NCBI GenBank assembly: GCA_026984915.1
Contig: JALSRG010000118.1
Coordinates: forward strand, 1-64,000
DNA from: Marinosulfonomonas sp.
Lineage (GTDB): Bacteria > Pseudomonadota > Alphaproteobacteria > Rhodobacterales > Rhodobacteraceae
Reading direction: 5' to 3'
DNA length: 64,000 nucleotides
The notes under the pieces are model-generated. The model ran no database searches. It worked only from the letters and a program-made list of their open reading frames with translations, and had not been told where the DNA came from. This document shows, piece after piece, positions 37,176 through 39,149 of the stretch. Every line of letters starts with the position of its first letter. Position 1 is the first letter of the stretch. The position numbers and the translations under genes were made by a program.

Positions 37176-37281
37176 AAAAAACATGGAGGGCCCCGACCCC
37201 CCGAGACCCTCCATCACCCCACGTGCTCCCTTCGCACCACACGTGAAAATTTCAAAAGGTCTCGGCCGTCCTGGCCTTGAT
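37176..37281 (-). ncRNA. Candidate structured small RNA with intrinsic terminator
   Basis: Within the 341-bp gap between the EVE and DUF2853 genes the minus strand shows a complete small-RNA layout. A TTGCCA/TAGGTT promoter with 17-bp spacing lies at 37288-37316. CCGAGACC (37258-37265) can pair with GGTCTCGG (37201-37208). An inner CACGTG/CACGTG stem follows. The terminator stem ATGGAGGG/CCCTCCAT (37183-37190 with 37207-37214) is followed by G and six T (37181-37176). The first pairing overlaps the terminator arm by two bases, so the two can compete. No protein gene lies downstream on this strand. No known RNA family was recognised; 6S and SRP RNA signatures are absent. Confidence 0.5.
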
Positions 37282-37287
37282 GTGATC

Positions 37288-37316
37288 AACCTAAGCGATA
37301 CGATTATTCTTGGCAA
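37288..37316 (-). promoter_or_regulatory. Predicted promoter for the small RNA candidate
   Basis: On the minus strand TTGCCA (37316-37311) and TAGGTT (37293-37288) are separated by 17 bp. The hexamers keep the most conserved bases of TTGACA and TATAAT. The position is consistent with a transcript starting near 37281. Confidence 0.35.
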
Positions 37317-37372
37317 TCGGGAACTATTGAAAAAACATATTAAATACAATCTGTTAATCATTCGGGTGCCGC

Positions 37373-37408
37373 TTGAAACAACAAACGCCCGCTGATGAAC
37401 AACGGGCG
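37373..37408 (-). terminator. Intrinsic terminator of the DUF2853 gene
   Basis: On the minus strand CGCCCG and CGGGCG (37408-37403 with 37391-37386) form a stem with an 11-base loop, followed by a T-rich run TTTGTTGTTT. It begins 21 bp after the DUF2853 stop. Confidence 0.75.
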
Positions 37409-37429
37409 CTGTCTATTTGCAGATCTGTC

Positions 37430-37771
37430 TTACTTGTAGACGGATTCTTTTCCGAAATGCTTTGTCAGCATATAGTAAATCACCGCGCGATACTTGTTGC
37501 GCTCCGAGCGGCCATAGGTTTCGATAACTGAATTGATCGCATCCATCAGTTCCGGGCCATCAGGCAGGCCAAGTTTTTTGATGAGGAAATTATTTTTGAC
37601 CGTTTCAAGCTCTTCTGGCTGACCAGCCGCAACGGTCGAGGCATCCCGGTTATAAATTGCGGGACCGCAGCCAATTGTAACTTTGGTCAACAGGTCCATA
37701 TCCGGGGTCATGCCGCATTTGTTTTTCAGATCGTCTGCATACTGTGCGATCAAATCGTCTCTTTTACCCAT
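37430..37771 (-). CDS. DUF2853 family protein
   Basis: A 113-residue acidic, helical cytoplasmic protein starting MGKRDDLIAQYADDLKNKCG and containing DMDLLTKVTIGCGPAIYNRD and a C-terminal YRAVIYYMLTKHFGKESVY. It matches the DUF2853 family, common in Rhodobacterales; the function is unknown. The ATG at 37771 is preferred over an in-frame GTG at 37786 because GGGAG lies before it. It is a single-gene unit with its own terminator. Confidence 0.8.
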   Translation of the reverse strand: MGKRDDLIAQYADDLKNKCGMTPDMDLLTKVTIGCGPAIYNRDASTVAAGQPEELETVKNNFLIKKLGLPDGPELMDAINSVIETYGRSERNKYRAVIYYMLTKHFGKESVYK

Positions 37772-37896
37772 GAGTTTTACTCCCACCTAAATTTTCGGAG
37801 ATATTCTCCGCTTAACTGGGCCCGGATTGGGCCTCGCAGGTAACCTAAAGCCAAAAGCTCCAAGAAAAAAGGGATTTTCCTGTCCGGTTCGTCGCA

Positions 37897-38930: not shown

Positions 38931-39149
38931 ATGAAAAAAGTAACTCTTCTCTGCGCAGCAGCAGCCGTCGCAGTTTCAGCCATGTCCCCTGCCTATGCAG
39001 GTGGTGCAGGTGCCCCTGTTATCGAAGACGAAGTGTTCGTAGACGAAGCCGCCGCACCTGCCAGTTCCCTTGGTGGTGCCGGTGTTGCCGCAGCCATTCT
39101 GGGCCTCGTTCTGGTCGGTGCCGCGATTTCTTCGTCCAACGGGACCTGA
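38931..39149 (+). CDS. Small secreted Gly/Ala-rich protein with C-terminal membrane helix
   Basis: A 72-residue protein with an N-terminal signal sequence (LLCAAAAVAVSAMSPAYA), a short acidic middle (VIEDEVFVDEAAAP) and a C-terminal hydrophobic helix (GVAAAILGLVLVGAAISSSN). Similar small proteins are frequent in Rhodobacterales, and the tail resembles the extra C-terminal segment of some ferrochelatases there; this is from memory. Function is unknown. A GGAG site precedes the ATG and a strong terminator follows. Confidence 0.75.
   Translation: MKKVTLLCAAAAVAVSAMSPAYAGGAGAPVIEDEVFVDEAAAPASSLGGAGVAAAILGLVLVGAAISSSNGT

Follow-up and report, generated by a model that had tools for sequence, protein, structure and literature searches.

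Two questions are raised by a short gap on the minus strand of a Marinosulfonomonas sp. contig (37176-37316): does it hold the gene of a small RNA, and why would one arm of its terminator have a second pairing partner? The window is the whole 64,000-nucleotide stretch analysed, and all positions refer to it unless another sequence is named. An earlier note, made from the sequence alone, had listed a -35/-10 pair, an outer helix, a CACGTG stem and a six-T terminator in this order, and direct reading of the minus strand finds all of them. The -35 box TTGCCA (37316-37311) and the -10 box TAGGTT (37293-37288) are separated by a 17-nt spacer, and the whole putative promoter occupies 37288..37316. 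The predicted transcript is about 105 nt long (37177..37281); its start near 37281 is placed from the promoter and its end, in the T run, from the terminator. At the predicted 5' end of the RNA lies the hairpin SL1, GGCC-AGGAC-GGCC (37264..37276), which has two bases in common with strand A, CCGAGACC (37258..37265), the 5' side of the outer helix. The core hairpin CACGUGU-loop-GCACGUG (37220..37245) carries its CACGTG arms at 37245-37240 and 37225-37220. A terminator scan gives a 14-pair stem (37214-37183), with a 5' arm at 37201..37214 and a 3' arm, strand C TCGGGGCCCTCCAT, at 37183..37196; by direct reading, six T at 37176..37181 complete the intrinsic terminator at the 3' end of the RNA. 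Strand B, GGTCTCGG (37208-37201), is the 3' side of the outer helix and part of the terminator 5' arm, and is needed by both folds. If A holds B, the CCCTCC part of C is freed. The two-base overlap of outer helix and terminator described earlier is correct for the GGAGGG/CCCTCC part only. The whole 8-nt B lies within the terminator 5' arm, and the outer helix and the full terminator are therefore mutually exclusive.

The window RNA has a folding energy of -45.2 kcal/mol (z -2.76 against dinucleotide shuffles, with 3 of 200 at least as good). This beats the shuffles only moderately and would be weak evidence by itself. The reality of the RNA gene is decided by conservation instead, namely by the family matches, by covariation in every helix and by the position of the promoter. 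BLASTN gives matches in 25 of the 101 genomes searched, the window's own included, and a scan with the core pattern gives at least 116 stretches in named genomes. Among the 80 matching record titles listed, nearly all name Rhodobacteraceae, Rhodobacterales or genera of these groups. A covariance model, R1, built from 109 sequences, matches the window at 37277-37184 with 94.4 bits. In the window's family it matches 178 of the 295 genomes sampled (158 of 260 if only good-quality genomes are counted), with two matches in 3 of the 178 matching genomes listed and one each in the rest. The sample of the class has 5 matching genomes out of 385, a set with an unstated share of the family, and all 5 are labelled as this same family. 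When 20 family genomes with no match were searched again under laxer filters, 4 gave weak matches (best E 0.002) and 16 gave none, so that absence or strong divergence of the RNA is common in the family. Within the genomes searched, matches are confined to this family. Very probably the stretch is the gene of a small RNA that many bacteria of one family have in common.

The three-hairpin structure is supported by compensating changes in all of its parts. Alignment A3 holds 90 loci (88 distinct), fetched by BLASTN or by the model and none by the core pattern. Standard pairs make up 96.9% of its cells, and the covariation score is 0.520, compared with 0.228 (sd 0.008) in shuffled alignments and at most 0.140 in slid registers. 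SL1 is paired in 96.0% of cells with both-side changes in 3 of 4 pairs, the core hairpin in 97.7% with 5 of 7, and the terminator in 96.7% with 11 of 11. The earlier note had named lack of conservation and covariation in relatives as the outcome that would speak against the RNA; all three hairpins covary, with 19 of the 22 pairs changed on both sides. A3 was fitted to the covariance model and the model was trained mostly on core-pattern loci, and both lean toward the structure. The same picture emerges more weakly from a plain MAFFT alignment (109 sequences), with 91.9% of cells paired, a score of 0.303 against 0.176, and 14 double-change pairs against 11.4 expected, a number reached by 25 of 500 shuffles. 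The core loop is partly conserved: it starts with GGTG in 75 of the 90 A3 loci, and GGTG and GGGA occur together in 52. An invariant loop GGUG-N4-GGGA was considered and dropped, this impression being partly produced by the core search pattern. Three loci of A3 (L025, L204 and L206) have insertions in the core loop with the stem kept.

The promoter keeps its place as well. In 136 of 159 distinct members the end of the pattern TTG-N19..21-TA lies 7-10 nt ahead of SL1, against a background of 0.26 members per offset, and among these 136 the spacer is 17 nt in 99 members and 18 nt in 37. With the promoter at a conserved position, the RNA probably starts at SL1 or a few bases ahead of it. A simple promoter scan of the window did not list this promoter, as its -10 box is too distant from the consensus. 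With the TTG at -36 to -34, position -14 is C in 50 and G in 35 of 99 members, while the T at -13 and the A at -12 were prerequisites of the count itself. These letters are compatible with the RpoHII logo as it is described in the available portion of PMC3441632; a housekeeping promoter is a possible alternative to an RpoH-dependent one. Many relatives carry an ACTT-like box at 9 to 6 nt upstream of the -35 TTG (A 75%, C 59%, T 75% and T 50% of 130), perhaps the site of an activator or a portion of an UP element; the corresponding place in the window (37322-37325, minus strand) reads AGTT. An ATG frame of at least 15 aa is closed within the RNA in only 18 of 159 members, indicating no conserved coding and a non-coding RNA. 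The T run has a family median of 5 T in the first 8 nt past the stem, and many members have a short run (68 of 159 with at most 4 T in these 8 nt). Such short runs would be weak for Hfq, the gene of which is present in the window's genome. With a conserved promoter, three covarying hairpins and a terminator, the candidate small RNA of the earlier note is borne out as far as sequence reaches.

The second fold, in which A pairs with B, required a test free of register. For every member, the energy of the duplex between its A and its B was set against the energies that its A gives with B from other members. Own duplexes have a mean of -13.27 kcal/mol and permuted ones of -10.64 kcal/mol (sd 0.165, z -15.9, n=159). 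Clustering by single linkage at 0.80 put 139 members into one cluster and was a weak control, and greedy representatives less than 0.78 identical were used instead; among these (n=47) z is -8.2, and none of 3000 permutations reaches the observed value. The register-free controls give z of -2.1 for reversed A/B, 0.5 for linker/B, 0.6 for linker/A and 1.9 for spacer/B. Counts in fixed columns are modest because the register varies: 77.3% of A:B cells are paired, with 88 of 500 shuffles reaching the count of pair types, and a second count gives 83.4% against 78.1% dealt at random. The pairing is poor in some members, down to -1.1 kcal/mol in L203. As judged from these sequences, the complementarity of A and B is kept by selection across the family, beyond what relatedness gives. 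A tracks B and B tracks C, and the three strands thus evolve together.

Predicted folds place the two pairings at different lengths of the RNA. Partition-function folding of RNAs that stop directly behind B predicts 4 or more A:B pairs in 152 of 159 members. For the complete RNA it predicts this many A:B pairs in 8 of 159 members, and 6 or more B:C pairs in 150 of 159. With A replaced by that of another member, 4 A:B pairs are still attained in 123 of 159, so conserved composition gives much of the pairing and selection refines an existing tendency. In predicted full-length folds of 100 members, P(B:C) exceeds 0.5 in 92 and P(A:B) in 5, namely L003, L004 and L005 (window's genus), L009 and L043. 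The window RNA itself is balanced, with P(A:B) 0.49 and P(B:C) 0.39, which explains why two folds were seen at first reading. Under constrained folding, A:B plus the core is a median of 8.7 kcal/mol worse than the three-hairpin form; it is lower in 9 of 100 members and within 3 kcal/mol in 20. Since full-length folds rarely keep A:B, its role rests on the selection together with the predicted intermediate. The two competing folds claimed earlier stand, in that A:B complementarity is selected (z -8.2 among the 47 representatives), with the qualification that the terminator prevails in most full-length predictions. The finding is real: this small-RNA family is widespread, has no Rfam model and conserves a two-step fold, in which the order of folding, A:B before B:C, is predicted only.

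The neighbourhood of the gene shows on one side a DUF2853 gene (37430-37786, minus strand, identified by Pfam) upstream of the RNA, with a separate terminator-like hairpin (37384..37410, minus strand, found by the scan) between this gene and the RNA promoter, outside the RNA. In 90 of the 116 core-pattern loci, a same-strand DUF2853 gene is found no more than 1.5 kb upstream, and so it is in 81 of the 104 that include at least 900 nt of upstream sequence. An EVE-domain gene lies downstream in convergent orientation in 102 of the 116, and in 84 of the 90 with at least 1700 nt downstream; YCII and gpsA come next after EVE. The gap from the RNA to EVE has a median of 102 nt and a lower quartile of 17 nt, and ranges from about 0 to 1202 nt (n=102). 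No conserved same-strand gene was found downstream of the RNA in the core-pattern loci; a mechanical count gives same-strand ATG frames of at least 100 aa starting within 300 nt downstream in 27 of 98 loci. The earlier remark that no gene lies downstream on that strand holds in this sense, with EVE convergent. The RNA is found without DUF2853 in the stretch examined in L189 of R. sphaeroides, L009 and L015. In R. sphaeroides the RNA is beside EVE and has the gene of a PLP enzyme on its other side, which indicates that the RNA is independent of DUF2853. This gene, for a PLP-dependent enzyme (Pfam PALP), occupies 1785-2993 of L189, the place where most relatives have DUF2853.

Our preferred explanation, to which we give a probability of about 0.6, is a stand-alone small-RNA gene with a two-step fold, both pairings of which are selected, and a product that would act as a regulatory RNA in trans. 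The gene would be transcribed from its own promoter. Once B is made, the 5' segment A is predicted to pair with it and to close a helix around the core hairpin. The emerging C would then take B from A, form the terminator and leave a three-hairpin RNA. The finished RNA may act in trans by base pairing, perhaps via the G-rich core loop and perhaps with Hfq, and A:B may set when the terminator or arm C becomes available. Where bacteria with Hfq carry a conserved orphan gene of such build, the default expectation is a trans-acting regulatory RNA, and for this reason trans action is the most likely one here. As A changes together with B, it is more than a plain seed for one fixed target. The selection on A:B would then concern either a folding intermediate that times the terminator or a means of releasing arm C. 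The three strands can be altered one by one or jointly, and this offers a clean test of the purpose of the transient fold. The trans-encoded small RNAs SorY and StsR of R. sphaeroides are similar in having an orphan gene, a promoter, a terminator, a short RNA and an Hfq gene in the genome. The present RNA differs from this type in that a conserved 5' segment competes for a terminator arm, it has no Rfam match, and its transcript and targets are putative.

The earlier note recognised no known family, and the Rfam search agrees with it. At gathering score, neither the window stretch nor any of 20 relatives gives an Rfam 15 match at the RNA, each having only one tRNA elsewhere. At E up to 5 only weak matches occur at the RNA, of 23.5 bits where 70 are required and 15.5 where 37 are required. 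This absence of a described family holds for Rfam only, and the RNA of R. sphaeroides may already be catalogued. One of the genomes (G054) was recognised as R. sphaeroides because its reaction-centre M protein is a 100% match. Its homologue, L189, lies on the minus strand of the chromosome at 99304-99399, with 43.4 bits and a model match of 96 nt. The printed 5' ends of SorY and PcrZ are 1,632,642 and 2,565,820, respectively (PMC6238624, as excerpted). On the 3,188,524-base contig of G054, CATAAT precedes 2,565,820 and a long hairpin follows it, and a short RNA with a strong terminator begins at 1,632,642. These small-RNA-like elements at the printed ends indicate that the coordinates are those of the published chromosome.

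It is unlikely, though worth keeping in view, that the homologue is an already described small RNA such as StsR, so that the family is known under another name; this would be compatible with the stand-alone gene favoured above. StsR is under RpoHI/RpoHII according to the excerpted text of PMC8307010, and the family promoter, with TTG and then C/G, T and A at -14 to -12, would suit the RpoHII logo as far as PMC3441632 describes it. The R. sphaeroides small-RNA list counts 38 orphan genes among 79, and these may include the homologue (PMC8625941, in the part available). Against this identity, StsR has 72 nt in the same excerpt of PMC8307010, while the model match of the homologue alone has 96 nt. 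SorY and PcrZ are excluded by their place, far from 99304-99399, given the printed ends in the excerpt of PMC6238624. UpsM is rejected because the homologue is not upstream of mraZ, the position that the available text of PMC5089854 gives for UpsM; the neighbours here are gpsA, YCII, EVE and DUF2853 (the PLP-enzyme gene in R. sphaeroides). UpsM is nevertheless similar as a Rhodobacteraceae small RNA that ends at an intrinsic terminator and has a proposed alternative fold. It differs in being part of the mraZ 5' leader, with a reported refolding that is seemingly not conserved (PMC5089854, same text), whereas the present RNA is no leader and conserves its alternative pairing. Pfam Cupin_7, used to check the place of ChrR, has no match in the R. 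sphaeroides genome. Among other described RNAs, Paracoccus denitrificans sRNA-29 is antisense to an ABC-transporter gene and thus in another context (PMC6686037, available portion). The P. denitrificans "intergenic 100" has a context in common with a putative R. sphaeroides small RNA, and no link was made since neighbours and sequence are absent from the description at hand in PMC5107571. The Ruegeria pomeroyi small RNAs of PMC4809877 come, in the text available, without coordinates for comparison. A regulatory RNA present across the family and lacking an Rfam model would fill a gap in a well-studied family, the model R. sphaeroides included.

Alternative pairing of a terminator arm is normally explained by a downstream gene. 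Its conservation here with no conserved gene behind it is unusual. A speculative and rather doubtful reading is that A evolved to catch the purine arm, so that CCCUCC can be passed to the ribosome-binding sites of targets or a portion of the RNA is kept hidden until transcription has fully terminated. If strand handing were true, activity and terminator state would be coupled in this RNA. We regard as improbable the specific version in which arm C (CCCUCC) is captured by a purine-rich ribosome-binding site on the target mRNA while A offsets the cost by pairing with B. This version would agree with the purine content of the family terminator 5' arm, which has 5.43 purines of 6 (74 script-recognised terminators) compared with 3.04 for the remaining terminator-like hairpins of those loci (n=282). 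The minority orientation is found in 11 of 438 paired cells of the lower stem and in 43 of 420 of the upper stem, judged pair by pair, and such pair-by-pair counts make the argument weaker than pooled counts had suggested. Transitions between A-U and G-C alone keep the orientation, however, and homologous members are not independent. Moreover, C is buried, and the fold that would expose it is the one with the median cost of 8.7 kcal/mol relative to the three-hairpin fold. CcsR1-4 and other small RNAs carry anti-Shine-Dalgarno motifs; the CCUCC stretch is a likeness to CcsR1-4, and here it is in the terminator 3' arm and paired in most predicted folds.

The attenuator invoked by the earlier note survives as an analogy. 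The terminator and the outer helix do exclude each other, but no conserved same-strand gene follows in the core-pattern loci, and the RNA is not a classical attenuator; attenuation of a downstream gene is rejected on this ground. Attenuators and riboswitch leaders share with the RNA two exclusive helices on one strand, both selected, with the antiterminator-like one predicted first. They differ from it by the conserved same-strand gene downstream that is missing here, and no ligand domain is recognised. Another reading is a regulated attenuator in which A:B is the antiterminator and the choice is between the short RNA and antisense read-through into the convergent EVE gene. The mutually exclusive and selected A:B and B:C pairings would suit such a switch, as would an EVE gene that is convergent in 102 of 116 loci and often close (lower quartile 17 nt, median 102 nt). 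We consider it quite improbable, as the gap to EVE spans about 0 to 1202 nt, 92 of 100 predicted full-length folds favour the terminator, and no conserved same-strand gene was found downstream in the core-pattern loci. Finally, that the RNA is the 3' UTR and terminator of the DUF2853 mRNA and no separate gene is very improbable despite the same-strand DUF2853 within 1.5 kb in 90 of 116 loci, being disfavoured by the conserved place of the RNA's own promoter, by the separate terminator-like hairpin in between in the window, and by loci that carry the RNA without DUF2853 in the stretch examined, such as that of R. sphaeroides.

Two minor observations concern the surroundings and the records. A 72-aa reading frame on the plus strand of the window (38931-39149) has a signal-peptide-like start by eye and no Pfam match at E 0.001. 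The RNA is present in JAFKDC010000051.1 (L051, 10471 bases), which is titled Enemella evansiae, and in G005:C51 (L023, 10471 bases), from the window's family. Enemella evansiae is an actinobacterium, and the title of JAFKDC010000051.1 looks wrong.
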